A stretch of DNA of 64,000 nucleotides from Candidatus Peregrinibacteria bacterium (GCA_003153355.1 PLYH01000002.1:4682-68681); one strand, 5' to 3'. Numbered from the stretch's first letter, positions 17,163 to 50,434 are shown. The notes: generated from the sequence alone by a model not told the origin. A program made the numbers and translations.

Positions 17163-20100
17163 TCAAGCGGTCCGCTTAACTTTATGCGGTACTTTTACCG
17201 ATGCATGAGCAGTCACGGCCGGAGTCTTCGTTCCCGCAAATTGTGGTGCATCAACTCCTATCGATGGATGAGATGGACGTTTAACGCCGGTGACTCTTAT
17301 CGCAAGATTTGAAGGACCTGAAGCCACGGGTTCAAGTCTGACCTTGATGATGCTTGTGGCCGATTCGGCGCGCGTCATGAGATTTTCCGGTCTGCAATAC
17401 ACCGTGCTCGATCCCTGTGAACCTCCAAGGAAGCCTTTATTGAGCGCAAAATAGAAATACGGCGCATACCATGAGGTGCTGGCCACATCAGCACAGGTGC
17501 TGCTTTGAGGCGCCGCGTTAATATCATCTGGAGTGAACCATGCCAGCAAAATAATTTTGAGGGCCTCATCGCGGGTAATGGTCTGATTCGGTTTAAATGT
17601 GCCGTCGCTATAACCCTTGATGATGCCTAATTCAACGCCCTTTTGAATATACTGGGCAGCCCAATGGTTTGACGGAACATCAGGAAACGGAGCCTGAGAC
17701 AAAGGAGGCAAAAGTCCTTCCTTGCATTTCATAAGCATGGTCAGAAGTTCAGCTCTCGTTAGCTGGTTATCAGGTTTAAACAGTCTCAAAAGATTCCCCT
17801 GCTGATCGGCATAACCCGCCACCTTGCAGGTGTTTAAAATTTCATCGATCTGCTGTTCGGCCCAATGGCCCGAGGTATCGAGGAAAAAATTATGAAGATC
17901 GGTGGTGTTTTGAGTGGAAGTTTCCGGAGCGGCCGAATGCAAGGAGGATGCTGGAGGCGGCGTTGGTGAAGCCGGTGGTGCTGGTGGAACGGGCGCAGGA
18001 GCTGGTGCGGGCGAAGATGATCCGCCGCCGGAAGATGATGAGCCGGCTGGTGGCCAAACAGTATATCCTCCTCCACCTGCGCCGCCGGTAACCGGAGGTA
18101 CTGGAGGTGCCACAGTTTCGACTCCCATACCGTTCTGTGCGCCGGAAGGATAAAGAGACACAAAACTATTCCCGTTCATAACAAATCGAAAGCCTGGCGG
18201 ATATGCGGCAAAAGTTCCATCCGAGGCCGTCGGCGATGTAACAAGACCAAAAGTTTCAGAAATAGGAAGAAAAGGAACAGCCGTAAGTTGCAGAGTTCCA
18301 TCCAAGTGAACATGCCCGCTTGCGTGGAGCTGATCGTAATCTGTTCCAGGATTTATTCCGTTAATCTGAGCAATCAATGTGGAAGCCCCGTCAAAAGAAA
18401 CGTTACCGGTATGAAATTGTGCCGTATTATTGCCTCCTGGAGAAACCGTTCCGCCGATTACCGTAAGATCGCCAACCGTACCTGTTCCGGCGAGTATGCC
18501 GCCTGTATTCACAGCAACCGCACTAGCTGATTGTGAGCCGTTCACAAAAAGTGTTCCGGCATTCACTCTTGTAGGACCTGTATAGTTATTGTTTCCAGTT
18601 AAAGTCAGCGTTCCTGACCCCTGTTTAACAAGACCGCCGGAACCGCCCAAAACACCGTTGAATGTTGTACTGGTGCTTCCATTGATTGTAAATACACTGG
18701 CTCCGAGTAATGTCACCCCTCCATTACCGGAAAGTGAATTGATGGTTTGGTTATAATCGTTAAGATTAAATAATGCACCGCTATCAATGACCAGGTCGCT
18801 GGCAACAGGAAGAGCATTGGAATTTTTTAGTTTGATATCTCCGGCATGAAGATTAGTCGGACCTGCATAGGTATTCACCCCGCTCAAACGTAATTCTCCG
18901 GGTCCTACTTTATTCAAAGCATGCAAACCGCTGACAACACCATTGAAGGCAAGTGAACCAGCCGCGTCATCGACATTGATGGTACTATCGGAACCCAAGG
19001 TAATCGGGCCTTCCCATGCATTGTCCACGGCCAGGCTGCCCCACAAAGCTCCGTTATCTGTATATCCCGGACCATTTAAAGTAAGTGCTTCATTAGCCAT
19101 ATCAAGAAAAGTAGCGCCGTTGATAAGCAATGTGCCTCCGCTGTTAACAACGGTTCCTGTGGCAGGAGTTCCATCGCCTGCTCCCAAACTTAAAGACGAC
19201 TGTAGGGCTAAAGTACCGTTATTCACGGTCGTAATACCGTGATAGGTGTTTGGACCGTACATTGTAAATGTTCCGGTTCCTATTTTTGTAAGACCGCCGT
19301 TAGTGGTATCACTGATTATACCTGCAAAATTCGTATCCTGATTATTGCTGCCTACGGTCAATGTATTGTTTGAACCGAGAACAACATCTCCGGTTCCATG
19401 CAAAGAACCGATGGTGTCCCCGCCTCCGCTCAAGGATAAATCCAATGTCGCACCGGTATTAATGACGACGCCTGAATCGGTATTTTGAAAAACATAGTTT
19501 GGCCCGGCATTGTCGGAAATTTGTCCCTGATCAATATTCGTAATGCCGGAATACGTATTTGGACCAAGCAATTTTAAATCACCGGTCCCTTCCTTAATGA
19601 AACCGGCGGGACCACCGATAGAACCAGTAAGAAATAAATTCACCCCTGCTTCAATATCGATATTGCTGTCTAAGGCAAGAGTGATCGGACCTCCCCACGT
19701 ATTCGTACCAAGATCACTGGAAAGAGCATTCGTACCTCCATTTAAAGTGAGTGATTCGTTTGCTATGTCCAGGCCATCGCCGTGAATATAGAGCGCAGCG
19801 CCATTTTCAATCGTGGTGCCGGAAGCGGATGTTCCCAAAGCGGTATTGGACTCTACATCCAGCGTACCTGCGGCAACATCTGTAAAACCGGTATAGGTAT
19901 TGGCACCGGTTAATATCAAAGTACCATCATTAATTTTCGTAAATCCGCCTGATCCGCTCACAACCCCATTAATAGTTAATGAATCCGAAGGACCGACGAA
20001 ATTAAAACTCGTATCTGATGCCAAAACAACATTGCCGTCCCAGATTGAAGATCCGCCTTCAATCGCAAAAGCGCCATTACTCGAGGGACCTTGACCATTA

Positions 20101-20906
20101 AGCGTGAGCAGTTCATTGCCGACATGAATACCGGGACCAACAATGGAAAGCATACCGCCACTATTGACCGTTGTGGCGGTAGCAGCTGTACCATCGGCAG
20201 TTCCGAGACCATTGTTCGTATCAATTTGCAAACTACTGTTATTATTAATGGTCGTTGTGCCGGCATAAGTATTATCATTATAAAATCCGACTTGTGCTGC
20301 ATTAGTAATAATCACTCCGCCGGTTGGACTTACTGAAGTATCCTCAATTGCATGAATCATAGTAATATTGCCCGGTCCTTGAAAGGTAAGGGTGTGATTA
20401 TTTAAATCAACACTTTTTGTTAAACCGTTGATCTGAAGTGTTTCTCCGGCATGATCAACGGAAAAATTTTGCGGACCAGCCAGCCTCATATCCATACTGA
20501 TGATATTGGTACCGCCTGTAGCCTGATCATCGATACCTGCGGTAAGCGGTGTAAAAGCTCCGGGAAATCCCTGGTTGATGGTATAACCGGTTCCTAAAAA
20601 TGTAATTGAATTGTAAGCCTGGCCGGCAGTGTCATTAAGGCTCGTGGGTTGCAGGGCTGAAGAAGGGAATACGATACTGTCTCCGGCTGCAATAGGACAA
20701 CCTGCACCCAAATCCCAGTTGGCCGTTCTAGTCCATTTGTTATCAACTCCAGAACCAGTCCAGGTTCGTACAGTAGGACAAGCAGCTGATGCACGTTTTA
20801 TATTGATTTGAAAACACCACACGAGCGCAAATGCAGCAATAAATAAACTGATAGTCGAACGGAAACTTTTTGTTTTTATCCAGGACGTTAGGGTGAATGT
20901 GTCCAT
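17163..20906 (-). CDS. Giant PATR-repeat surface protein with C-terminal SLH domains
   Basis: A 1247-residue secreted protein. The N-terminus has a basic region (KTKSFR) and hydrophobic core (STISLFIAAFALVW) ending near ASA, an apparent signal peptide. RTWTGSGVDNKW and RTANWDLG resemble the opening of autotransporter-like passengers. At least five clear passenger-associated repeats (pattern GGLxKxGxGTLxLxGxNTYxGxTxVxxGTL) recur between ~320 and ~810, with a weaker one at ~195-235; these usually form a beta-helix. After a Pro/Ser/Gly-rich linker (~970-1010), three SLH modules occupy ~1020-1190 (HWAEQQIDEIL, NHWAAQYIQKGVELGIIKGY, SWYAPYFYFALNKGFLGG), which normally anchor to cell-wall polymers. 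No beta-barrel domain is present. Confidence 0.88.
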   Translation of the reverse strand: MDTFTLTSWIKTKSFRSTISLFIAAFALVWCFQINIKRASAACPTVRTWTGSGVDNKWTRTANWDLGAGCPIAAGDSIVFPSSALQPTSLNDTAGQAYNSITFLGTGYTINQGFPGAFTPLTAGIDDQATGGTNIISMDMRLAGPQNFSVDHAGETLQINGLTKSVDLNNHTLTFQGPGNITMIHAIEDTSVSPTGGVIITNAAQVGFYNDNTYAGTTTINNNSSLQIDTNNGLGTADGTAATATTVNSGGMLSIVGPGIHVGNELLTLNGQGPSSNGAFAIEGGSSIWDGNVVLASDTSFNFVGPSDSLTINGVVSGSGGFTKINDGTLILTGANTYTGFTDVAAGTLDVESNTALGTSASGTTIENGAALYIHGDGLDIANESLTLNGGTNALSSDLGTNTWGGPITLALDSNIDIEAGVNLFLTGSIGGPAGFIKEGTGDLKLLGPNTYSGITNIDQGQISDNAGPNYVFQNTDSGVVINTGATLDLSLSGGGDTIGSLHGTGDVVLGSNNTLTVGSNNQDTNFAGIISDTTNGGLTKIGTGTFTMYGPNTYHGITTVNNGTLALQSSLSLGAGDGTPATGTVVNSGGTLLINGATFLDMANEALTLNGPGYTDNGALWGSLAVDNAWEGPITLGSDSTINVDDAAGSLAFNGVVSGLHALNKVGPGELRLSGVNTYAGPTNLHAGDIKLKNSNALPVASDLVIDSGALFNLNDYNQTINSLSGNGGVTLLGASVFTINGSTSTTFNGVLGGSGGLVKQGSGTLTLTGNNNYTGPTRVNAGTLFVNGSQSASAVAVNTGGILAGTGTVGDLTVIGGTVSPGGNNTAQFHTGNVSFDGASTLIAQINGINPGTDYDQLHASGHVHLDGTLQLTAVPFLPISETFGLVTSPTASDGTFAAYPPGFRFVMNGNSFVSLYPSGAQNGMGVETVAPPVPPVTGGAGGGGYTVWPPAGSSSSGGGSSSPAPAPAPVPPAPPASPTPPPASSLHSAAPETSTQNTTDLHNFFLDTSGHWAEQQIDEILNTCKVAGYADQQGNLLRLFKPDNQLTRAELLTMLMKCKEGLLPPLSQAPFPDVPSNHWAAQYIQKGVELGIIKGYSDGTFKPNQTITRDEALKIILLAWFTPDDINAAPQSSTCADVASTSWYAPYFYFALNKGFLGGSQGSSTVYCRPENLMTRAESATSIIKVRLEPVASGPSNLAIRVTGVKRPSHPSIGVDAPQFAGTKTPAVTAHASVKVPHKVKRTA

Positions 20907-37845: not shown

Positions 37846-37906
37846 TTGACAATGCCCGCGGTATAATTACAATAACATTGCATTTAAAATGCATCATTAT
37901 TGCATT
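37846..37906 (+). promoter_or_regulatory. znu operon promoter with metal-regulator-like operator
   Basis: TTGACA (37846-37851), 16-bp spacer, TACAAT (37868-37873). Directly downstream is a perfect palindrome TGCATTT-A-AAATGCA (37879-37893), and TTGCATT recurs 22 bp later (37878 and 37900), which is two helical turns. A dimeric metal repressor bound here would block transcription initiation. By analogy with other zinc importers this would be a Zur/Fur-family site, but the sequence does not match a consensus that I know. Confidence 0.6.
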
Positions 37907-37919
37907 ATACCTCAGGCAT

Positions 37920-38840
37920 ATGAAAAAATTATTGTTCGCATCCATGGTTCTGATTCCGGTGATATTTTTTGCCTCATGTTCTGCCGGAACTGAAAACACT
38001 GCGTCATCTTCTGACTCGCAGCAAACATCCAAAACCGTTCAGGTGGTTGCAGCGGAAAATTTCTACGGAGACATCGCCAAACAACTCGGAGGAAATCACG
38101 TGAATGTCACCAGCATTCTTTCCGACCCGAATGTTGATCCGCACGAATATGAATCAACAGTCCAGGATGCGGTCAGGATAAGCGACGCGGATGTGGTCAT
38201 TGAAAACGGCGCGGATTATGACACCTGGATGGATAAATTAATCACGGCATCGCCGAATCCGAACCGCAGCGAAATTATTGCCGCAAAAATTGCTCCGAAT
38301 GTGTTGCCCGATAATCCTCACTTCTGGTATGGCATTGATAATATGCCCGCCATCAGCCAGTCAATCACTGACGATTTCAAAAAAGCGGACCCCTCGGACT
38401 CGGTTTCCTTCGATCAAAATCTTGCAACATTCAACGCCTCAATCCAAAATATCCAGCAAAAAATGAACGACATCAAAGCAAAATACAACGGAACTCCGGT
38501 CGCCCTGACCGAAACCATCGGTTTGTACCAGACGCAGGCAATGGGGTTAGTCGTTTTGACTCCTTTGGAATTCGAAAAAGCCATCGCCGAAGGGAACGAT
38601 CCTCCGGCCGAAACGGTGCAAACCACCAACGATCAGATCAACAAAAAAATGGTGAAAGTTTTGATTTACAACGGCCAGACGGTTACTCCGATTACCAGCA
38701 ACCTTTTGGATGCAGCAAAAAAACTGAATATTCCTGAAGTGTACGTGACCGAAACCATGCCGGCGGGCAAAACGTACCAGTCCTGGATGACGGATCAGCT
38801 GAATGCTCTTCAAAAAGCCCTTGAACAAGGGGTACAATAA
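37920..38840 (+). CDS. znuA: Zinc/manganese ABC transporter substrate-binding lipoprotein
   Basis: A 306-residue cluster A-I solute-binding protein. The signal peptide ends in a lipobox (FASC), placing it on the outer face of the membrane. VVAAENFYGDIAKQLGG, DPHEYE and the C-terminal EVYVTETMP fit the TroA/ZnuA fold; the His in DPHEYE, NPHFWYG and the late acidic residue are probable metal ligands. There is no long His-rich loop. The open frame begins earlier at a TTG inside the operator; I start at ATG 37920. Four nt before the ATPase gene. Zinc versus manganese is not decided. Confidence 0.85.
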   Translation: MKKLLFASMVLIPVIFFASCSAGTENTASSSDSQQTSKTVQVVAAENFYGDIAKQLGGNHVNVTSILSDPNVDPHEYESTVQDAVRISDADVVIENGADYDTWMDKLITASPNPNRSEIIAAKIAPNVLPDNPHFWYGIDNMPAISQSITDDFKKADPSDSVSFDQNLATFNASIQNIQQKMNDIKAKYNGTPVALTETIGLYQTQAMGLVVLTPLEFEKAIAEGNDPPAETVQTTNDQINKKMVKVLIYNGQTVTPITSNLLDAAKKLNIPEVYVTETMPAGKTYQSWMTDQLNALQKALEQGVQ

Positions 38841-38844
38841 ACCC

Positions 38845-39615
38845 ATGAAAAAAGAAACTGTCATTTCGGTCAACAATCTTGGGATACAGCTCGGAGGACG
38901 AACCATCCTTCAGAATGTGGACCTTGAAATTCATAAAGGCGAATTCATCGCCATTCTTGGACCGAACGGTTCCGGAAAAAGTACGCTGCTCAAACTGCTG
39001 CTCGGCCTGATCAAACCTTCAGTGGGAAATATTTCCGTGCTCGGAAAATCGCCGCACCGCGGCAACGACGCCATCGGGTATGCGCCCCAGCACCGCGTGC
39101 TGGAAACAGAACTGGCTTTGCGGGCGCGTGATGTGGTCGGATTCGGATTTGACGGCAACAAATGGGGTTTCGGATTTCCCAATAAAAAAAGAGAAGATCT
39201 TATTAATAAAGCGCTGAAAGAAGTGAACGCTTTGCATCTCGGCAACGCTCCGATCGGGCATCTGTCCGGAGGCGAACAGCAGCGCATGTTGATAGCCCAG
39301 GCGCTGATCACCAATCCCCAGATTCTACTTCTTGATGAGCCGCTTTCAAATCTTGATATTAACAACGGCCAGGAAATCGTGTCGCTTCTTGCCAGACTTT
39401 CCCGTGAAAAAAAAGTGACGATCATGCTGGTGTCCCATGACATAAATCCTCTGCTTCCGGTTGTAAACCGCGTACTGTTCATGGCGCGTGGACAAAGCGC
39501 CATCGGCACTCCAGACCAGGTTTTAACGAGTGCCACCCTGAGTAAACTTTACGACACCCACATTGAAATCGTCCGCGCGTTGAACCGCATTTTCGTTGTG
39601 GGCGCGGAAACATAG
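38845..39615 (+). CDS. znuC: Metal ABC transporter ATP-binding protein
   Basis: A 256-residue ABC ATPase with Walker A GPNGSGKST, Q-loop APQHR, signature LSGGEQQR, Walker B ILLLDEPL and switch His in LVSHDI. It energises the ZnuA/permease importer. The frame is open upstream into znuA, but MKKETVISVNNLG at 38845 follows the znuA stop by 4 nt and matches the family start. The permease gene follows after 20 nt. Confidence 0.9.
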   Translation: MKKETVISVNNLGIQLGGRTILQNVDLEIHKGEFIAILGPNGSGKSTLLKLLLGLIKPSVGNISVLGKSPHRGNDAIGYAPQHRVLETELALRARDVVGFGFDGNKWGFGFPNKKREDLINKALKEVNALHLGNAPIGHLSGGEQQRMLIAQALITNPQILLLDEPLSNLDINNGQEIVSLLARLSREKKVTIMLVSHDINPLLPVVNRVLFMARGQSAIGTPDQVLTSATLSKLYDTHIEIVRALNRIFVVGAET

Positions 39616-39635
39616 ACGCATATTAACAGCCTCGC

Positions 39636-40481
39636 ATGTTTGCTCTGCTTCATTACCAGTTCATCCAAAACGCCTTCATCGCCGGTTCCATGGTAGCGGT
39701 CGTTGCGGCACTGATCGGCTATTTTTTACTGACGCGCGGATTAACTTTTGCCGGACACGCGCTTTCTCATATCGGTTTTGCGGGAGCAGCCGGCGCACTT
39801 GTAGTCGGCGTTGATCCGATCTTCGGCCTGCTGGCTTTTACGATTGCTGCGGGGGTAGGCATCGGGTTACTTGGAAAAAAACTCAGCGAGCGCGACATCA
39901 CCATCGGCATCATCATGACCCTGATGTTGGGACTTGGAGCACTGTTCATTTCTTTATATAGCGGCTATGCGGAACGGGCCTACAGCATTCTCTTTGGAAC
40001 CATCCTGGGCATCAGCCAGACCGACGTTCTGGTGACGGCAATTTTCAGCGTGATAACTTTGATCGGGCTCGGGTTCATCTTCCGCCCGCTGCTCTTCAGT
40101 TCTTTTGATCCCGAAGTCGCGGAGGCGCGGGGCATTCCGGTGCGCGCACTGGCCGTTATTTTTCTGGTGCTGGTAGCTCTCACTGTGTCGATGTCCGTGC
40201 AAGTGGTCGGAGTTTTATTGATTTTTACGCTTCTGGTCGGACCCGCAGCAACGGCAACCAGGCTGGTGCACCAGCCTGTTGCAGCGATAATTCTTTCCGT
40301 ATTTTTAAGTCTCACCTATACCTGGCTTGGCATATTTTTCGCCATTAACGGAACGTGGCCCGTCAGTTTTTACATCGCCGCGCTTTCGTTCGGAGTCTAT
40401 CTTCCGGTGCGGCTGTTCTCACAAAAATTGCATATGCCTGCGGGCACCGATATTCATCATGTAAACCACTCGCATGCTTGA
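39636..40481 (+). CDS. znuB: Metal ABC transporter permease, first copy
   Basis: A 281-residue ABC-3 family permease with 8-9 membrane helices. LTFAGHALSHIGFAGAAGAL and the EAF-loop-like region DPEVAEARGIPVRAL are characteristic; the latter contacts the ATPase. The C-terminal tail is His-rich (HMPAGTDIHHVNHSHA), which may capture metal at the membrane. It overlaps the second permease by 8 bp. The two are the same length and clearly homologous, pointing to a tandem duplication and a possible heterodimeric channel. Confidence 0.88.
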   Translation: MFALLHYQFIQNAFIAGSMVAVVAALIGYFLLTRGLTFAGHALSHIGFAGAAGALVVGVDPIFGLLAFTIAAGVGIGLLGKKLSERDITIGIIMTLMLGLGALFISLYSGYAERAYSILFGTILGISQTDVLVTAIFSVITLIGLGFIFRPLLFSSFDPEVAEARGIPVRALAVIFLVLVALTVSMSVQVVGVLLIFTLLVGPAATATRLVHQPVAAIILSVFLSLTYTWLGIFFAINGTWPVSFYIAALSFGVYLPVRLFSQKLHMPAGTDIHHVNHSHA

Positions 40482-41319
40482 AATCTTTCACCAGGAGTTT
40501 GTGCAGAACGCTTTTCTGGCCGGAACGCTCATAGCCGTCATTTCCGCGATCATCGGGTATTTTGTGGTCCTGCGCGCTCAGGCTTTCGCGGCGCACGCGC
40601 TCTCGCACATCGGCTTTGCAGGAGCCACCGGAGCAGCCCTGTTTGGCGTGAGTTCACTGGCGGGCATGTTCGGCTTCACTTTACTGGCGGCGCTTGGCAT
40701 CGGGGCTTTGGCAAAAAAAATCCAGGGCCGCGATGTTGAAATCGGCATGATCCTGTCGTTCGTCCTGGGCTTGGGCGTTTTATTCCTGCGTCTCTACACC
40801 AATGCAGCCAACGAAGCCGTGGGCGTGCTGTTCGGATCCATCCTCAGCGTTACCCAAAACGATGTTATACTCACATTCATTTTTGGATGTATTGTTTTGA
40901 TTTCACTACTGGTTTTTTTCCGGCCTCTGCTTTTTGCTTCGATTGATCCTGAAGTCGCGGAAGCCCGCGGCGTTCCGGTCGAACTTCTTTCCATAATTTT
41001 CATGCTGCTCCTGGCAATCACTGTGGCCGAAGCCATTCAGGTCGTAGGAGTCTTACTGGTATTTTCGCTTCTTATTGCACCCGCTGCTTGCGCACAGCAC
41101 ATGACAAAAAAACCGGCCGGCGCCATCCTGCTCTCCATTCTCTTCGGGCTTGCATTCACCTGGGGAGGCCTGTTTTTGGCCTTTACCACGAAGTACCCGG
41201 TGAGCTTTTACATCGCCACTCTTGCAGCAGTAACATATTTCATCGTCATTAACCTCTGCCATTTCATGCGCCCGCACCATCTGCAAACCGTAAAGCATCC
41301 GAATAAAGAAGTCGCATAA
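40474..41319 (+). CDS. Metal ABC transporter permease, second copy
   Basis: A 281-residue paralogue of the preceding permease. It shares the QAFAAHALSHIGFAGATGAA block, DPEVAEARGVPVELL, and the late VVGVLLVF segment. The C-terminus again has histidines (HFMRPHHLQTVKHP). Its start lies 8 bp inside the previous gene, implying translational coupling and equal amounts, as a heterodimer would need. Most ZnuABC operons have one permease gene; two occur in some manganese/zinc systems. It ends the operon; a new -10 box follows within 20 bp without a visible terminator. Confidence 0.88.
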   Translation: MLEIFHQEFVQNAFLAGTLIAVISAIIGYFVVLRAQAFAAHALSHIGFAGATGAALFGVSSLAGMFGFTLLAALGIGALAKKIQGRDVEIGMILSFVLGLGVLFLRLYTNAANEAVGVLFGSILSVTQNDVILTFIFGCIVLISLLVFFRPLLFASIDPEVAEARGVPVELLSIIFMLLLAITVAEAIQVVGVLLVFSLLIAPAACAQHMTKKPAGAILLSILFGLAFTWGGLFLAFTTKYPVSFYIATLAAVTYFIVINLCHFMRPHHLQTVKHPNKEVA

Positions 41320-41334
41320 AAACAAAAAATGTTG

Positions 41335-41340
41335 TATAAT
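41335..41340 (+). promoter_or_regulatory. -10 box for the FAAL megaprotein gene
   Basis: Consensus TATAAT in the 45-bp gap. The leader would be ~18 nt. The -35 would fall in the 3' end of the permease gene and is not obvious. Confidence 0.5.
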
Positions 41341-41364: not shown

Positions 41365-44300
41365 ATGAAAAACAACGGAACACCGGCAAATTTAATCGAA
41401 ATGTTGCAAAAAGCGGCGAGGGAAGTTCCCGATAAAATCGCCTATGAATTTTTGAGTTACGACAACAACAATAAAGAAAAAAAGAGAAAAGTCTCTTACC
41501 GCGAGCTGGAAGAATCAGCAAAAAAAGTGGCTGTTGATTTAAAAAAGCACGGACTCAAAATCGGAGACAGGGTATTAATTTTTTCCACGCATACGCCGGA
41601 TAACGCCGCAGCGGTGTTCGGGGCAATTTATGCAGGCGTAGCTTTTACGGTCATTCCCCCGCCAATTGATGAAGGCAAAAAAATCCGCTTCCAGTCAGTG
41701 ATAGAATCCGCAAAACCAAAACTCATCATGGCCAGCAGTGACATGACTGAAAAACTTGAAACAGCCATCTATCCAAAAAATCTTCCTAAATTCGTAGCCG
41801 CTGAACTCGTACACTTTTTGAAAGGTTTCAAAATTTATAATATTGATGAATGCATCTCCGGTTCAGACGTAAAAGCCGACGAATGGCACATGCCCAAGAT
41901 AAACGACGAAACGCTCGTCTGTCTGCAATATTCATCCGGATCCACTTCAACGCCAAAAGGAGTCATGATCAGCCATGGAAATTACATGAGCAACCTTGAA
42001 TATATCCGCAGCTTGACCCTGCCTCCAGAAAACCTTCGCTTCCTTGGATGGGTACCGTTCTTCCATAACATCGGCCTGACCGTACATATTTTCTATAGCA
42101 TATATCTGCATGGAACGAATTTCGTCATGTCACCGCTGGCGTTTATTGGAAGCCCTCAGCGCTGGCTGAAAAACATTTCAAAATATAAAATCAATGCAAC
42201 CTCCGGTCCGAATTCCGCATACGAATTTTGCACCCAGATCGTTAAAAACGAAGAAATCGAACATCTGAATTTATCGTCGCTTCAATACGCCGTCTGCGGA
42301 TCGGAACCGATCAACTTTGACACGCTGAATCTCTTCAGCAAAAAAATGTCCGCCGCGAATTTAAGTAAAACGGCTCTTACTCCGGGATACGGACTGGCGG
42401 AATGCACCACGGTGGTGTCAGTAAAAAAAGCCGGCGAAACCCTTGAATATTTAAGCATAGATGAGAATGCGCTCAACAAAAACAAAATCGTATTACTCAA
42501 AAAAAATTCCCGCGATGCAAAAAAAATCGTGAGCTGCGGCGATCTGGGAGAAGGAATGCTGGCCAAAATCATCGACCCCGAAACGCTCCAGGAATGCAAA
42601 CCCGACCGGATCGGTGAGCTTTGGATCCAAAGCAAAAGCGTCGCCCTGGGATACTGGAATATGCCCAAGGAAACGGAGGAAACTTTTAAGGCAACATTGA
42701 AAAATTATCCCGGACACTTTTTACGTACAGGTGATCTGGGCTTCATCAAAGAAAACAAACTCTACATTACGGGAAGATTCAAAGAGCTCATCATCATCAA
42801 CGGCAAAAAATTCTTTTCAAACGACATAGAAGTTCACCTGAAAAAAACGATCCCGGAATTAAGATCCCTGTCCATCGTTTCGTTTTCCGCACTTATCGGC
42901 AATCGGGAAGAACTGATCATTTGCGCGGAATTGGGAAACCAGTCTCCGGTGAATTTTGAGCAAGTCACACAAAAAATCAGCTCCGAAATGACCAAAATCT
43001 ACGGCTTCGGCCCGTATGACGTACTGTTCATTAAAGCAGGCAGTCTGCCGAGAACCGACAATAATAAGATCAAGATCGGAGCGTGTAAAAAACTTTATGA
43101 CGTACATCAACTGCAGACCGTCCATCAGTTGAAAGGCTCATCGAAGGACAAAAAACTCTCCGCAGGAAAAGCGGCTATGCCAAAAACCAAAACTGAAAAG
43201 ACCCTGTTGACCATTTTTTCAGAAACTCTGAATAACAACGGAATCGGCGTCACCGACAACTTCTTCAACATCGGCGGAAATTCACTGACCGTGACGCAGC
43301 TTATCACCAAAGTCGAAGAAAAATTCAAAGTGAAGATTCCGATGCGTACGTTTTTTGCCGAACCGACGATTCAAAAACTCGCCGCCCTAGTGGATTTCAT
43401 CAAACAGCACGGTTCAGCCGAAAACATCGGCAAACACCAAACCGATCTTTCCAAAGAAATCTCGCTCCCCAAAGACATTCAACCCGAAGGAAAAAAAGTA
43501 ACGGTCATCAAAAACGTTTTCCTCACGGGAGCCACGGGGTTTTTGGGAGCATATCTGATCCGGGAATATCTCGCGAACAAAAAACTCACCATGTATTGCC
43601 TCGTGCGCGCCAAAACTCCGCAGGAAGGCCTGGAACGCATCACCAAAAACATGAAACTCTACAAAGTCTGGCATGACAGTTACGCTCCCCGCATTATTCC
43701 GGTGCTGGGCGACATCGGCGAAAGCCGTCTGGGCCTCAAGCCGAAAGATTATCTGCAGCTGGCCAAAACCGTGGATATGGTGGTTCACAGCGCCGCGGAT
43801 CTGAACTTCCTTTTCCCCTACGAATCCCTGAAAAAACTGAATGTTGAAGGTTCGGAAGAAGTGATGCGTCTGGCCTGCAAATACAAAACGAAACCATACC
43901 ATCACATTTCCTCTTTCAGCGTCTACGACAACCCATCATATTTCGGAAAAACCGCTTATGAAAATGATCCGATGAACCACTGGAAAGGTTATTATCTTGG
44001 CTACAGCGAAAGCAAATGGGTCGGCGAGAAAAAAGCCATGATCGCGCGCGAACGCGGACTGCCCGTCACTATTTTCCGTCCCGGAGAAATTACCGGAAGT
44101 TCAAAATCCGGCATCTGGCAGATGAAAGACATGGTCTGCAGATTCATGGTCGCCTGCATCCAGATGGAAGCCATTCCGGATTTTGCGTTCAGTGTTCATA
44201 TCACTGACGTGGATTATGTAGCCAAAGCCATGACGTACATTTCCTTGCAGCCGCAATCCAGAAACCAAAACTACAACCTTGTGAATAACAAACTCATGTC

Positions 44301-44673
44301 GCTGAAAGATATGGCGGTGATGGCCGGAAAATTCGGCTATGACGTCAAACTTCTCAGCTTCAACGCCTGGAGGAAAAAACTTACTCACGACATTGAAGGA
44401 TCGAAGGATAATGCGCTGAAACTTTTGGCGCCGCTGTTTTTTGAAAAACGCGGCGGAAAAGAAAATTTCTCACGGCGTTACAACAAAGGAATCATCCCTA
44501 AATTCGACACGTCAAACACTGACAATATCCTGAAAGGAACCGGCATTGTTTGTCATCCGGTAGATGAAAAATTGATGCTGACCTACTTCATGTACTTCAT
44601 TAAATCCGGCTACATCAAACTTCCCGAACACAAATTTAAGGCCGTCAGAGAATTCCTTATCGACCTCCTGTGA
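41365..44673 (+). CDS. Fatty-acyl-AMP ligase / acyl-carrier / thioester-reductase fusion
   Basis: A 1102-residue three-domain enzyme. Domain 1 (~5-590) is an adenylate-forming ligase: YSSGSTSTPKGVM (~188-200), GWVPFFHNIGL, a GPNSAYEFC stretch, GYGLAECTTVV and RTGDLGF. The HNIGL, SGPN and GSEPI features follow fatty-acyl-AMP ligases rather than CoA ligases. Domain 2 (~615-690) is an acyl carrier with NIGGNSLTVTQL, Ser near 639 being the phosphopantetheine site. Domain 3 (~715-1102) is an NAD(P)H thioester reductase: TGATGFLGAYL (~721), SAADLNF and catalytic YSESK (~879). Expected product: fatty aldehyde or alcohol released from the carrier. AcpS overlaps its stop. Very unusual for a CPR-like genome. 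Confidence 0.9.
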   Translation: MKNNGTPANLIEMLQKAAREVPDKIAYEFLSYDNNNKEKKRKVSYRELEESAKKVAVDLKKHGLKIGDRVLIFSTHTPDNAAAVFGAIYAGVAFTVIPPPIDEGKKIRFQSVIESAKPKLIMASSDMTEKLETAIYPKNLPKFVAAELVHFLKGFKIYNIDECISGSDVKADEWHMPKINDETLVCLQYSSGSTSTPKGVMISHGNYMSNLEYIRSLTLPPENLRFLGWVPFFHNIGLTVHIFYSIYLHGTNFVMSPLAFIGSPQRWLKNISKYKINATSGPNSAYEFCTQIVKNEEIEHLNLSSLQYAVCGSEPINFDTLNLFSKKMSAANLSKTALTPGYGLAECTTVVSVKKAGETLEYLSIDENALNKNKIVLLKKNSRDAKKIVSCGDLGEGMLAKIIDPETLQECKPDRIGELWIQSKSVALGYWNMPKETEETFKATLKNYPGHFLRTGDLGFIKENKLYITGRFKELIIINGKKFFSNDIEVHLKKTIPELRSLSIVSFSALIGNREELIICAELGNQSPVNFEQVTQKISSEMTKIYGFGPYDVLFIKAGSLPRTDNNKIKIGACKKLYDVHQLQTVHQLKGSSKDKKLSAGKAAMPKTKTEKTLLTIFSETLNNNGIGVTDNFFNIGGNSLTVTQLITKVEEKFKVKIPMRTFFAEPTIQKLAALVDFIKQHGSAENIGKHQTDLSKEISLPKDIQPEGKKVTVIKNVFLTGATGFLGAYLIREYLANKKLTMYCLVRAKTPQEGLERITKNMKLYKVWHDSYAPRIIPVLGDIGESRLGLKPKDYLQLAKTVDMVVHSAADLNFLFPYESLKKLNVEGSEEVMRLACKYKTKPYHHISSFSVYDNPSYFGKTAYENDPMNHWKGYYLGYSESKWVGEKKAMIARERGLPVTIFRPGEITGSSKSGIWQMKDMVCRFMVACIQMEAIPDFAFSVHITDVDYVAKAMTYISLQPQSRNQNYNLVNNKLMSLKDMAVMAGKFGYDVKLLSFNAWRKKLTHDIEGSKDNALKLLAPLFFEKRGGKENFSRRYNKGIIPKFDTSNTDNILKGTGIVCHPVDEKLMLTYFMYFIKSGYIKLPEHKFKAVREFLIDLL

Positions 44674-45032
44674 TCAAAAACTTCGCCGTAGGAATCGACA
44701 TCGTTGCGGTCAAAAAATTCAAAGACGCTAAAAGCAGCGATCCGTATTTAAAAAAAATCTTCACGAAAAAAGAACTGGAATACTGCTTTGCCAAAAAAAC
44801 TTTCGCCGAATCCCTCGCAGCCAGATTCGCGGCCAAAGAAGCGGCCATTAAGAGTCTTTCAAAATTCAAAATCATTCCGGACTTTGCGGATATCGAAGTC
44901 GGGCACGACAAAAACCAACGGCCGTACGTCACCATAAAATCCGCAAAAATTCAGAAAATGTTTGCCTTTGACCTAAGCATTTCCCACGAAGACGACTTCG
45001 CGGTTGCGGTGATTTTGACCGAAAAAATTTAG
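44670..45032 (+). CDS. acpS: Holo-[acyl-carrier-protein] synthase (AcpS-type)
   Basis: A 120-residue 4'-phosphopantetheinyl transferase. GIDIVAVKKF holds the Mg-binding Asp; FTKKELEYC and RFAAKEAAIKSL match the second motif (FxxKEA); the end SISHEDDFAVAVIL is the usual third motif. The start is GTG, overlapping the megaprotein stop by 4 bp (GTGA), so the two are translationally coupled. It very probably activates the carrier domain of that protein. The 3' end overlaps the convergent TrxR-like gene by 4 bp. No other ACP gene is visible in the window. Confidence 0.9.
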   Translation: MIKNFAVGIDIVAVKKFKDAKSSDPYLKKIFTKKELEYCFAKKTFAESLAARFAAKEAAIKSLSKFKIIPDFADIEVGHDKNQRPYVTIKSAKIQKMFAFDLSISHEDDFAVAVILTEKI

Positions 45033-45981: not shown

Positions 45982-46018
45982 GCACAAGATAAACCGCTCC
46001 CCTTTCATACGCTTGTTA

Positions 46019-46027
46019 TGCTATGCT
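46019..46027 (+). promoter_or_regulatory. Extended -10 promoter of the RnfD-like operon
   Basis: TGC-TATGCT with the -10 at 46022-46027, only 9 nt before ATG 46037. It supports that start over the upstream TTG and implies a nearly leaderless mRNA. Confidence 0.45.
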
Positions 46028-46036
46028 CCCGGAAGT

Positions 46037-46909
46037 ATGGCATTTGCATCGCTTAAACAAAAAATACCGGTTAAATATTTCATGGCGGTTTATCTCGCCG
46101 CGATTTTTATCTATGCTTCGTTCGCATTCAATCCGCAAGCCGGACTCTCAACCTTGGTGAAAGGTTTTATCATCGTCATTCTCTATGCCTGTTTTGATCT
46201 TTTGTGGACATTCATCCGCGATAAAGTCTGGTATTTCCCTTTGTCGTCGTTCATTTCAGGATTTGTCATCGCTATTGTTTCCATCCCGAACCCTCCGCTG
46301 TATGTTCTGATTCTTCTGCCGTTACTGGCGGTTTTTTCCAAACAGCTGCTGCATTTCGGTAAAATGCGCCACGTATTCAACCCGGCTTCGTTCGCCATGG
46401 TCGTCATGAGTTTTTTTCTGCCCGCAGTTTCATGGTGGGGAACGTCATGGGATATCATCGGATTAGTCGTCATTTCGATTTTCGGACTTTTTATTTTATG
46501 GAGACAGGAACGCTGGCACGTCACCATTCCTTTTCTGTTTTCATACACCATCTGCCTGAGTCTTTTTTTACTGCTCACGGGAATAACTTCAGACCAGCTC
46601 CCGAATATTCTCAACGCCGAACTCGTCAACGGGACCGTGCTTTTTTTCTCAACGGTTATGCTGATTGAGCCCCTCACCTCAACCTTTCCCACGCACAAAC
46701 AAAGGACGGTTTACGGAATTTTAGTGGGATTCTTTTCAGTGGCAGTAATGTATATTTTAAAACTCACCGGGTTACCTCATCAGGATCCGCTTGTCGTCGG
46801 TCTGCTTTTAGGAAATCTCACCGCCGGTTTGCTCTTTCTCCCGAACAGAAAAAAGGCTATGATCAAACCACCAATGACCGCAACAAATAACAATGAACTC
46901 CATGGCTGA
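46037..46909 (+). CDS. RnfD/NqrB-like membrane protein
   Basis: A 290-residue protein with about nine hydrophobic helices. HVFNPASFAMVVMSF and LIEPLTSTFPTHKQRTVYGILVGF correspond to the FNPAA and DPxTSPxTxxGxxxYG blocks of the RnfD/NqrB family, which carry electrons across membranes in Rnf/Nqr complexes. The SGAT motif for covalent FMN is not visible, and no other Rnf subunits are nearby, so this is a stand-alone relative. It heads a tight operon with Rieske, cupredoxin, MscL, M23 and OYE genes, and is divergent from a flavoprotein. Electron-transfer function is inference. Confidence 0.75.
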   Translation: MAFASLKQKIPVKYFMAVYLAAIFIYASFAFNPQAGLSTLVKGFIIVILYACFDLLWTFIRDKVWYFPLSSFISGFVIAIVSIPNPPLYVLILLPLLAVFSKQLLHFGKMRHVFNPASFAMVVMSFFLPAVSWWGTSWDIIGLVVISIFGLFILWRQERWHVTIPFLFSYTICLSLFLLLTGITSDQLPNILNAELVNGTVLFFSTVMLIEPLTSTFPTHKQRTVYGILVGFFSVAVMYILKLTGLPHQDPLVVGLLLGNLTAGLLFLPNRKKAMIKPPMTATNNNELHG

Positions 46910-47186
46910 CACCAGTGACGTTCCTCAAAACAAAGGAAAAATCATCACGGTCGACGGGAACAACGTAGCGGTTTTTAACGACAAAGGAACATTCAAAGCT
47001 TTCTCCACGAGCTGCACCCATTTGGGCTGCGACATCGAATGGAACGATACTGAAAACACCTGGGATTGCCCCTGTCACGGCTCAAAATTCAACCCTGACG
47101 GCAGCGTAAAAAACGGCCCCGCCCAACGGGCTCTGGATCCGATCGCCATCAAAATCGAAAACAACCAAATAACCTTAAACCTTTAA
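46893..47186 (+). CDS. Rieske [2Fe-2S] ferredoxin-like protein
   Basis: A 97-residue single-domain Rieske protein. CTHLGCD and CPCHGS provide the two Cys and two His that bind the 2Fe-2S cluster; FNPDGSVKNGPAQRALDP completes the fold. No signal peptide or membrane segment, so it is cytoplasmic and resembles Rieske-type ferredoxins. The first ATG overlaps the RnfD-like gene by 17 bp; a second ATG at 46902 is also possible. Likely an electron carrier between the flavoprotein or OYE and the membrane protein, by context only. Confidence 0.9.
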   Translation: MNSMADTSDVPQNKGKIITVDGNNVAVFNDKGTFKAFSTSCTHLGCDIEWNDTENTWDCPCHGSKFNPDGSVKNGPAQRALDPIAIKIENNQITLNL

Positions 47187-47196
47187 ACCGAAACGT

Positions 47197-47889
47197 ATGC
47201 GGACATCACTCAAAACCATCACGGCAGTATTCGCCGTATCAATGCTTCTTGCAGGCTGCACTCAGCAGACTCCTGAACAAACGGCAACACAGCAGTCGCA
47301 AACTCCCACTCCAACAACAGCAAACCAGCAAATGGGACTTACTATTTCATCTCAGGAAACAACTTCCTCTGAGCAGACCGGCGCAGCCGTGACAGTAAGA
47401 CCGCCGACATCCGATAACATCGTCGCATGTCCCGCAAACGAATATTCTTGTACGTGCGCCACCGGCAACTATTGTCTGGCAAGGGGTGCTATGTGCATAA
47501 GCCCGACTTCAGCATGTCCTGCGACATTATCAGCTCCATCACCAGCACCAACGCCAAGACCTGCCCCTACTCCAAGTCCGACACCAGCACCGCAGCCAAA
47601 ACCGGCACCCGCTCCTACACCAGCCCCTGCTCCAAAAACGACCCATGAATTCGTCTCAATTTCCAGCTTTAGCTTTACGCCGGCAAACATCAGCGTAGCG
47701 GCCGGAGCAACCGTCACATGGACAAACCAGGATCCGATTCCTCACACTGTTACTTCTGATTCCGGAGCATTCGGTTCCGGAAATTTATCTCAAAATCAAA
47801 GCTACAGCTTCACCTTTTCAAAGGCAGGAACGTTCAGCTATCACTGCGCAATCCATCCAATGATGAAAGGAACGGTTACCGTAAAATAA
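47197..47889 (+). CDS. Cupredoxin (plastocyanin-like) lipoprotein
   Basis: A 230-residue exported blue-copper protein. The signal peptide ends in lipobox LAGC. Residues ~70-108 hold six cysteines (CPANEYSCTCATGNYC, then two more). A low-complexity Ala-Pro-Thr linker (~110-147) is followed by a cupredoxin domain (~150-230). Type-1 copper ligands are visible: His in PHTVTSD, then Cys, His and Met in YHCAIHPMM. It would accept and donate single electrons outside the membrane. Two nt upstream of mscL, in the redox operon. Confidence 0.9.
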   Translation: MRTSLKTITAVFAVSMLLAGCTQQTPEQTATQQSQTPTPTTANQQMGLTISSQETTSSEQTGAAVTVRPPTSDNIVACPANEYSCTCATGNYCLARGAMCISPTSACPATLSAPSPAPTPRPAPTPSPTPAPQPKPAPAPTPAPAPKTTHEFVSISSFSFTPANISVAAGATVTWTNQDPIPHTVTSDSGAFGSGNLSQNQSYSFTFSKAGTFSYHCAIHPMMKGTVTVK

Positions 47890-47890
47890 T

Positions 47891-48337
47891 ATGAAAAAAT
47901 TTCTTGATGAGTTCAAAAAATTCGCAGCAAAAGGCAACGTCATAGATATGGCTGTCGGTATCATGCTGGGCACCGCCTTCAACCAGATCGTACAGTCGCT
48001 CGTGAACGACCTGATTATGCCGCCGCTGGGTTTAATCATCGGCGGCATTAAATTTTCAGATTTCAAATTTGTACTTAAGGGTGCGGTCATTAACTCTTCC
48101 GGACAAACCGTCTCCGACGCGGTAACCATGAATTACGGGAATTTTATCCAGATTTTCATCAATTTCGTCATCATCGCGTTTTCTCTTTTTATGGCGATCA
48201 AATTTATCAACGTCATGAAGGAACGAGCATTAAAAAAAGCTAAAAAAGAAGAGGACGCGCCGACTCCGGCAGAAAGCAGAGAGGCCCTCCTGTTAACGGA
48301 AATAAGGGATCTCCTCAAACAAAAAAAGAGAAACTAA
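47891..48337 (+). CDS. mscL: Large-conductance mechanosensitive channel
   Basis: A 148-residue channel that opens under membrane tension during hypo-osmotic shock. FKKFAAKGNVIDMAVGIMLGTAFNQIVQSLVNDLIMPPLGLI is a typical TM1 (given here in parts: GNVIDMAVG, VNDLIMPP), followed by a periplasmic-type loop, TM2 (FIQIFINFVIIAFSLFM) and a charged C-terminal helix (TEIRDLLKQK). Length is normal. It starts 1 nt after the cupredoxin stop and precedes an M23 peptidase gene, an envelope-related grouping. Confidence 0.94.
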   Translation: MKKFLDEFKKFAAKGNVIDMAVGIMLGTAFNQIVQSLVNDLIMPPLGLIIGGIKFSDFKFVLKGAVINSSGQTVSDAVTMNYGNFIQIFINFVIIAFSLFMAIKFINVMKERALKKAKKEEDAPTPAESREALLLTEIRDLLKQKKRN

Positions 48338-48346
48338 TCATCTCGT

Positions 48347-49063
48347 ATGAAAAAAATCTTCTTCGCACTTTTCACTTCAGTACTGATGATCGGAGGCTGC
48401 ATGAACAGCCAGACGCAGATTTCCGATAATGTTGCTGTATCTTCTGCGAGTCAGCAAAATGCACAAAACGCTGCCTTGACCGTGACTTCCCGGCAAACAC
48501 CCGGCCAGACCGCGCCGTCACAGCAACAGGCAGATCCGCCTCAAAAAACTCCTGCAACAAACGCACAACTGGCGGAACCCATCAGCAATGCCCTCAGCAG
48601 AATCACCAAAAAAACCTTCGGCCTCAAGGTTTCTCCCGGACATTCGCCGGTTTCTCCAGAAAAATTTTCCGGATACCATACGGGCGTAGATTTTGAAACG
48701 ACTCCGGACGAACAAAACATCGATGTTCCCATCTACGCCGCATGCGACGGCAAACTACTCATGAAAAAAATCGCCACCGGTTACGGCGGAGTCGCGGTGC
48801 AGTCATGCACTTTGAATGGCGCAGCAGTAACGATCATTTACGGTCATCTCAAATATACGAGCATCATTCCGTCCGTAGGACAAGCGCTTACTGCCGGCGA
48901 AAAAATCGCGGTGTTGGGAAAAGGCTACAGCTCGGAAACCTCCGGTGAACGCAAACATCTGCACTTCGGCGTGCACAAAGGCACGGGCATCAACATCCTC
49001 GGTTACGTCCAGGTTGCATCGCAACTCGGCAACTGGCTCGACGGAAGCAAATATATGCAATAA
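48347..49063 (+). CDS. M23 (LytM-type) peptidase lipoprotein
   Basis: A 238-residue exported protein with lipobox IGGC. After a Gln/Pro/Thr-rich linker (~20-75), the M23 domain shows YHTGVDF (HxxxD zinc ligands) and HLHFGVH, the HxH site. These are the residues of active LytM/lysostaphin-like endopeptidases that cut peptide cross-links in peptidoglycan, so it is probably active. A YAACDGKLL strand and VLGKGYSSETSGERKHLHF are typical of the family. Nine-nt gap to the OYE gene. Confidence 0.9.
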   Translation: MKKIFFALFTSVLMIGGCMNSQTQISDNVAVSSASQQNAQNAALTVTSRQTPGQTAPSQQQADPPQKTPATNAQLAEPISNALSRITKKTFGLKVSPGHSPVSPEKFSGYHTGVDFETTPDEQNIDVPIYAACDGKLLMKKIATGYGGVAVQSCTLNGAAVTIIYGHLKYTSIIPSVGQALTAGEKIAVLGKGYSSETSGERKHLHFGVHKGTGINILGYVQVASQLGNWLDGSKYMQ

Positions 49064-49072
49064 ATACGATCA

Positions 49073-50434
49073 ATGAGCGATCAGATGAACAAGTCAAAAA
49101 TCAATCCTAAAGACATTTTATTCGAGCCGCTTCGTTTCCGGAATCTCACGGTAAAAAACCGCCTGATGCGATCGAATATCTCGGGACGCATTGATAATTA
49201 TAACGGCTCAGGGTCCGAAGCCAGAATTTGCTGGGAAGAAAAATTCGCGCGCGGCGGAGCAGGTGTATTGATTTCATCACATGTTCCGATCAATGTCCGC
49301 GGCCGGATCCTTCCAAATTATGCGATGATCGATACCGACGAGCGCATCCCTTTTTGGCGCGAACTTGGAAAACGCATCCATCAATATGACTGTAAATATA
49401 TTCTGCAGATCTCACATTCAGGCCGTCAGCAGGACATGGGCGGCATCGAAAATCAGGGGAAAATCGCGCTTTCTTCAACGAGCAAATCCGACTCTTTTCA
49501 CGGATTCCGATGCAAAGCCATGAGCCGTAAAGAAATCAGGGAAGTTATCAAACAATTTGCGCAGGCGGCCCGTCGCGTGAAAGCTGCCGGACTTGATGGC
49601 ATCGAATTGCATTCCGCAAACGGTTATCTTTTTACCCAATTTTTAAGTTCAGCGATTAATGACCGGAAAGATGAATACGGCGGCAATCTTAAAAACCGGG
49701 CGCGTTTCCTGCTTGAAGTCGTAGCGGCTGTCCGCAAAGAGGTTGGAAACAACTTTCATCTTCAGGCAAAAATCAGCGCAGTTGATTATAGTAACGATCT
49801 TTTTTTCTGGGAGAAAAAAGGCACGACGCTGGAAGAATCGATCCAGGTCTGTAAGTGGCTCGAACAATCCGGGGTCGACGCCCTCCATATTTCAACCGGA
49901 AACAGTTTCGGCCACCCCAAAAATCCCGGCGGCGATTTTCCTATGTATGAAGCCGCAAATAACTACGGAGTTATGCTGCCGAGCGGAATTCATACCAGCA
50001 GGAACATGCATTTTTTCCGCAATCCGTGGCTGCAGCCTCTTTTCAAATTTTTATGGTCCAGAAACAAGCCCCAGCCGATCGAAGGTTTCATTCTCCCGCA
50101 TGCCAAAGCGATTAAAAAGCAGGTTCATATTCCCGTTATCTGCACGGGCGGTTTTCAAACGGCATCGGTGATCCGGAAAGCTATTGAGGACGGATCTTGC
50201 GATGCGGTTTCAATGGCAAGAACGCTTCTTGCGAATCCCGATCTTCCAAATATGTTTAAACGCGGAAATAATAAAGCGCCAAAACCTTGTACATACTGCA
50301 ACAAGTGTCTGATCAATGTTCTGCAGCATCCTTTGGGCTGCTACGACGTCTCACGCTTTAACGGCGACGAAAAAAAGATGATGAAAGAAGTAATGGCATT
50401 TTATGATGAAGCGGAAAAAAGATCTTTCAAATAA
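49073..50434 (+). CDS. Old-yellow-enzyme family flavin oxidoreductase with Fe-S cluster
   Basis: A 453-residue FMN-dependent oxidoreductase. FEPLRFRNLTVKNRLMRS opens the TIM barrel; QISHSGRQQ, LDGIELHSANGYLFTQFLS and NDRKDEYGG are diagnostic of the OYE family. The C-terminal CTYCNKC with a later Cys (LGCYD) forms a 4Fe-4S site as in the 2,4-dienoyl-CoA reductase-like subgroup, but the FAD/NAD domains of those ~670-residue enzymes are missing. It must receive electrons from another protein, perhaps the Rieske or flavoprotein encoded nearby. Substrate unknown. Confidence 0.88.
   Translation: MSDQMNKSKINPKDILFEPLRFRNLTVKNRLMRSNISGRIDNYNGSGSEARICWEEKFARGGAGVLISSHVPINVRGRILPNYAMIDTDERIPFWRELGKRIHQYDCKYILQISHSGRQQDMGGIENQGKIALSSTSKSDSFHGFRCKAMSRKEIREVIKQFAQAARRVKAAGLDGIELHSANGYLFTQFLSSAINDRKDEYGGNLKNRARFLLEVVAAVRKEVGNNFHLQAKISAVDYSNDLFFWEKKGTTLEESIQVCKWLEQSGVDALHISTGNSFGHPKNPGGDFPMYEAANNYGVMLPSGIHTSRNMHFFRNPWLQPLFKFLWSRNKPQPIEGFILPHAKAIKKQVHIPVICTGGFQTASVIRKAIEDGSCDAVSMARTLLANPDLPNMFKRGNNKAPKPCTYCNKCLINVLQHPLGCYDVSRFNGDEKKMMKEVMAFYDEAEKRSFK

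Follow-up and report, generated by a model that had tools for sequence, protein, structure and literature searches.

Two overlapping genes occupy positions 41365 to 45032 on the plus strand of the window, by which we mean the whole 64,000-nucleotide stretch of Candidatus Peregrinibacteria DNA that was analysed. The first gene (41365..44673, ATG start) encodes a 1102-residue protein in which a predicted fatty-acyl-AMP ligase (FAAL), a carrier domain and a thioester reductase are joined, and the second (44670..45032, GTG start) encodes a 120-residue holo-ACP synthase (AcpS). The two genes share the four bases GTGA (44670-44673), which hold the GTG start codon of AcpS and the stop codon of the reductase. 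A preliminary description of this DNA had reported a fusion of this size and an AcpS gene overlapping it by 4 bp, and we recovered both reading frames as described. On the same strand, a Zn/Mn ABC uptake operon (ZnuA-like protein, ATPase and two permeases; 37878-41319) ends 45 bp upstream of the reductase reading frame; a metallophore role, an idea that this operon raises, gained no further evidence. A -10-like hexamer, TATAAT, was read on the plus strand at 41335..41340, 24 nt upstream of the reductase's ATG. It has no good -35 partner and the promoter scan made no call there; we take it as a weak hint that the pair can be transcribed apart from the znuABC-like operon.

Codon usage and G+C of the pair are ordinary for the window (codon-usage z 0.9, GC3 z 0.4), so that any transfer of the pair would be old; judged by codon usage, a recent transfer is not supported. 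No gene that would use the product was recognised beside the pair. Downstream, at 46013-50434, we observed in a row genes for an RnfD/NqrB-like membrane protein, a Rieske protein, a cupredoxin (47197-47889, a codon-usage outlier with z -3.2), MscL, an M23 peptidase and an OYE-like oxidoreductase. Elsewhere in the window, 17163-20906 encodes a protein of 1247 aa that combines PATR repeats with an S-layer homology domain.

Domains and catalytic residues

In the 1102-residue protein, the predicted ligase domain spans residues 8-580 (41386..43104), the carrier domain residues 606-680 (43180..43404) and the thioester reductase domain residues 715-1084 (43507..44616), all on the plus strand. The corresponding Pfam matches are AMP-binding at 14-431 (2e-59), PP-binding (PF00550) at 613-676 (3e-15) and NAD_binding_4 at 720-956 (1e-65). 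With AcpS, the enzyme set is complete at the level of domains, as had been claimed. The motif QYSSGSTSTPKG was read directly in the protein. The three catalytic motifs previously called intact are indeed so: the carrier motif GGNSL contains Ser640 (43282..43284), the predicted phosphopantetheine site; the TGxxGxxG of the reductase reads TGATGFLG at 721; and its predicted catalytic YxxxK consists of Tyr880 and Lys884 (44002..44016, in GYSESK). The Ser/Thr-Tyr-Lys triad is complete (HHISSFSV, Tyr880, Lys884), with Ser (SS) where MxaA has the catalytic Thr. The A10 lysine of the FAAL domain is Lys568. Two further deviations from consensus lie in the ligase, HNIGL for HDMGL and, before the A10 lysine, NNK for SGK. 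The GGNSL motif marks the carrier as NRPS/PCP type and not FAS type (DSL).

The ligase had been assigned to the fatty-acyl-AMP ligases, with structure prediction proposed for the FAAL-specific insertion, and the structural comparisons bear the assignment out. Among solved structures, FAALs come closest to the first 600 residues, namely an olefin synthase domain (7r7f, 1.6e-88) and a Legionella protein (3kxw, 5e-85), with FadD23 and FadD32 as further relatives, and the insertion region (residues about 352-395; 42418..42549, plus strand) aligned to 7r7f and 3kxw with very short gaps at most. NCBIfam ranks FAAL families ahead of CoA ligases for this part of the protein. We modelled the protein with AlphaFold on an alignment of eight sequences, and the confidence was moderate (pLDDT 67, pTM 0.51). 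The model's top Foldseek matches are all FAALs (for 7r7g, TM by target 0.86, E 6.6e-49), and its C-terminal part matches the MxaA reductase domain (0.84). Sequence comparison and model together support a predicted FAAL rather than a CoA ligase. The reductase scores 328.9 bits against the thioester reductase family TIGR01746 (cut-off 213.35) and 7.5e-84 against the MxaA R domain 4u7w; with values of 1.6e-88 and 7.5e-84 against the PDB, the domain assignment is not due to chance.

AcpS is a single-domain protein and belongs to PF01648 (1.6e-15; 57.6 bits, cut-off 25). Against the NCBIfam acpS model TIGR00516 it scores 55.4, just below the cut-off of 59.8, and it passes the cut-off of TIGR00556. 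It matches the solved AcpS structures 3qmn and 1f7t at about 4e-10 and has the Mg-site residues in GID (Asp10) and FAAKEA (Glu57).

Genome context and relatives of the pair

The window lies inside a 313-kb contig of a genome of 1,456,349 bases that is 99.01% complete. A whole-genome profile search gave one match each for PF01648, PF00550 and PF00501, all of them in this pair, and none for the ketoacyl synthase PF00109, while 10-14 of 14 control genomes were positive for these four profiles. The AcpS therefore has no other carrier to serve. The pair had been called self-contained, and the genome goes further than that: it is the only carrier, phosphopantetheinyl transferase (PPTase) and AMP-binding enzyme found there. 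The reported absence of fatty-acid synthesis genes from the window likewise extends, for ketoacyl synthase, to the whole genome, for which such a search had been proposed, and a fatty acid used here would most likely be scavenged. The host, earlier considered a possible CPR bacterium, belongs to CPR/Patescibacteria by its traits (1.46 Mb, no uL30, no ketoacyl synthase). Absence of uL30 is a CPR signature, and uL30 (PF00327) was absent from this genome and from 188 of 192 sampled genomes of the phylum. A CoaE gene in a native-looking context (C7:55319) makes CoA plausible as the phosphopantetheine donor of AcpS, and the genome encodes one PlsC-type acyltransferase. A second CoaE gene is found where contig C7 ends (L124, G000:C7:128000-134901), among genes whose proteins do not look like those of the rest of the genome; this foreign-looking end is possibly chimeric.

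The 1102-residue protein was found in none of 12 other genomes of the family (E<=0.001) and in none of 379 other genomes of the phylum (E<=1e-20), its own genome being the one in 380. At E<=1e-20 this search missed more distant ligases, which surfaced through the search with AcpS. AcpS itself occurs in 11 of the 380 genomes. Of the 10 other loci, at least 7 have a carrier protein or domain adjoining it, indicating that AcpS in this phylum mostly travels with a dedicated carrier. Four loci (L113 49-2939, L115 5293-8056, L116 8955-11796 and L120 6202-8975) have an 821-881 aa fusion of AMP-ligase, PP-binding and acyltransferase domains directly beside AcpS, a module that is likely to serve fatty-acid capture and lipid re-acylation in CPR genomes. 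Like the window pair they combine an acid-activating enzyme fused to a carrier with an adjoining AcpS, but their ligase is of the CoA-ligase/AAS type and a PlsC-type acyltransferase takes the place of the reductase. At L111 (3591-8621), ACP, SDR, AMP-ligase, LuxE and LuxC genes lie just before AcpS, and its gene content suggests a second kind of acid-to-aldehyde locus within the phylum. The remaining loci hold ACP, MaoC and SDR genes (L117), a weakly ACP-like ORF some 4.5 kb from AcpS (L112), or no carrier seen at the AcpS locus (L114 and the short L118); at L119 (7661-9312) an acyltransferase, a 229-aa PPTase of the larger type and a 76-aa ACP follow one another. AcpS-plus-carrier loci related to the window pair are present in a few per cent of the genomes sampled from the phylum. 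A survey covering 675 CPR genomes did not find any enzyme that produces ACP or depends on it (PMC7242380). The present locus is a clear exception to this, and a later paper described transferred acpP in Patescibacteria (PMC12455944).

Stand-alone proteins of the same architecture (FAAL-ACP-TR) were found in a GTDB genome scan, which is a sample and not a census. The matches listed include one of 1111 aa from Dulcicalothrix desertica (L018; 34% identity), together with a second group from Mycobacterium, Acidobacteriota, Calditrichota and Tepidamorphaceae (22-26% identity; L020, L059, L023, L026, L035, L055). The domain architecture is therefore not new, and our literature search found no paper on such stand-alone enzymes. 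Like the window protein they are single chains, of 1050-1134 aa, with 22-34% identity over the alignment (the slices used for the domain comparison could be off by a few residues); their hosts have larger genomes, and the window AcpS had no match in their loci. Downstream of the Dulcicalothrix gene lie genes for a FAAL-ACP-acyltransferase, a Zn-alcohol dehydrogenase and a fatty-acid desaturase, and the cluster also holds a divergent FAD_binding_4/FAD-oxidase_C protein, of a family that includes alkylglycerone-phosphate synthase (AGPS); this protein is closest to GlcD models, far below their cut-off. We regard the locus as a candidate ether-lipid or glycolipid cluster. It also contains a carotenoid-type protein (L018 5963-17308). 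Four near-identical IMG/VR contigs called viral (L013-L016) each have a FAAL gene close to one of their ends and are perhaps prophage borders with host genes.

A phylogeny of the ligase and reductase domains, which had also been proposed, gave a partial answer. The reductase domain fell on a long branch near those of L018 (Dulcicalothrix) and L036 and the ACP-reductases of Nostoc and Calothrix, with weak support (80/84); the Nostoc and Calothrix loci have a gene set of the heterocyst-glycolipid type with a PPTase nearby. The FAAL domain remained unplaced on a long branch. For the reductase tree a clean query sequence was used, while the query row of the FAAL tree came from an alignment with gap signs. 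As a guide to a donor, the trees go no further than these weakly supported cyanobacterial neighbours of the reductase domain.

Predicted reaction and competing readings

We propose that the pair, in a CPR bacterium that lacks fatty-acid synthesis, is a two-gene, self-sufficient carboxylic-acid reductase that would act on scavenged fatty acids, and we give this reading a probability of about 0.72. The steps are drawn from knowledge of the protein families. AcpS, with CoA as donor, would prime the carrier domain by attaching phosphopantetheine at Ser640; the FAAL domain would convert a free fatty acid and ATP to acyl-AMP and then pass the acyl group to the carrier as a thioester, with no free acyl-CoA; and the C-terminal reductase would reduce the thioester with NAD(P)H to the aldehyde. 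A second reduction, to the primary fatty alcohol, is probable, as known for relatives. The conversion had been described as proceeding without CoA, which would be true of the acyl intermediate but not of priming, where AcpS needs CoA as the phosphopantetheine donor (CoaE is present). We expect the enzyme to be active on long-chain substrates with the alcohol as its main product. That product might be a signal, a surface lipid or a wax-like compound, as had been suggested, and may be built into an alkyl lipid, for instance a glycolipid. The PCP-type carrier, the HNIGL, NNK and Ser-for-Thr deviations, the long branches in both domain trees, the moderate confidence of the model (pLDDT 67) and the lack of a recognised product-using gene beside the pair speak against this reading. 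PCP-type (GGNSL) carriers are often poorly modified by AcpS-type PPTases; as no other PPTase was found in the genome, this AcpS and this carrier must work together or not at all.

Less probably, reduction ends with the fatty aldehyde, and this would itself be the product (a signal, a reactive compound or the substrate of another enzyme). Some R domains release aldehydes, and LuxE and LuxC, which make fatty aldehyde in luminous bacteria, are encoded beside AcpS and ACP at the phylum locus L111. However, the closest solved relative of the window reductase is the MxaA R domain, which together with Hgl-type relatives is held to give alcohols, and no aldehyde-using gene was recognised nearby. It is unlikely that the FAAL-like ligase takes a keto, aryl or amino acid and that a small aldehyde or alcohol results. 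The PCP-type carrier, the NRPS-type reductase and the long branch of the FAAL domain would fit such a substrate, but by far the best matches come from FAALs, among families and structures alike, and keto-acid and amino-acid adenylation domains score far below them. We hold it equally improbable that the pair is decaying or inactive (an apo carrier, a dead ligase) or sits on a contaminating contig. Although there are several deviations from consensus, the protein occurs in just one genome of the phylum sample and another contig, C7, has a foreign-looking end, the reading frame is uninterrupted over 3.3 kb with its catalytic residues kept, codon usage and GC3 lie within the range of the window, and the pair sits inside its own 313-kb contig.

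The AGPS route to ether lipids is known from mammals and has been proposed for myxobacteria. That the fatty alcohol feeds classical alkyl-glycerol synthesis by this route is very improbable and not supported: the Dulcicalothrix gene adjoins a FAAL-ACP-acyltransferase and the FAD_binding_4/FAD-oxidase_C protein, and Myxococcus ElbD joins reductase, ligase, ACP and acyltransferase (PMC9131029), but that FAD protein is only a putative AGPS, nearer to GlcD, and the AGPS profile PF02913 had no match in the whole genome while 11 of 14 control genomes were positive.

Returning to the proposed two-gene reductase for scavenged fatty acids, we consider the gene pair itself real and well preserved, in an unexpected organism. 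Tentatively, some CPR bacteria without fatty-acid synthesis may have a minimal carrier-protein economy, in which AcpS is dedicated to one fused enzyme that binds scavenged fatty acids covalently to its carrier; the captured acids would be reduced to fatty alcohols for a special surface lipid here and would re-acylate lysolipids elsewhere. If this is true, CPR cells remodel host lipids and do not just take them over. The small, expressible pair offers a direct test of lipid scavenging and remodelling in CPR, and it would lead from fatty acid to aldehyde or alcohol by a compact route with no free acyl-CoA.

Comparison with known systems

HglB/HetM, an ACP-thioester reductase needed for heterocyst glycolipid (PMC8064123), is among the nearest relatives of the window reductase domain (weak support, 80/84) and also has a PPTase gene in its locus. 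Unlike the window protein it has no ligase domain and receives its acyl chain from a PKS instead of a free acid, and its PPTase is Sfp-type whereas that of the window is AcpS-type. ElbD, the ether-lipid enzyme of Myxococcus, combines reductase, acyl ligase, ACP and acyltransferase and has fatty acids as substrates (PMC9131029); it shares the first three with the window protein but has them in the order reductase-ligase-ACP-acyltransferase, with the acyltransferase as an additional domain. The surprise at this locus is its genome context, not the domain order. Carboxylic acid reductases (CARs) likewise join adenylation, carrier and reductase domains in one chain and need a PPTase, ATP and NADPH, but their adenylation domain is not a FAAL, and the window protein scores only 165 bits against the CAR equivalog NF041592 (cut-off 1300). 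The window enzyme is predicted to work like a CAR, yet it lies outside the CAR family.
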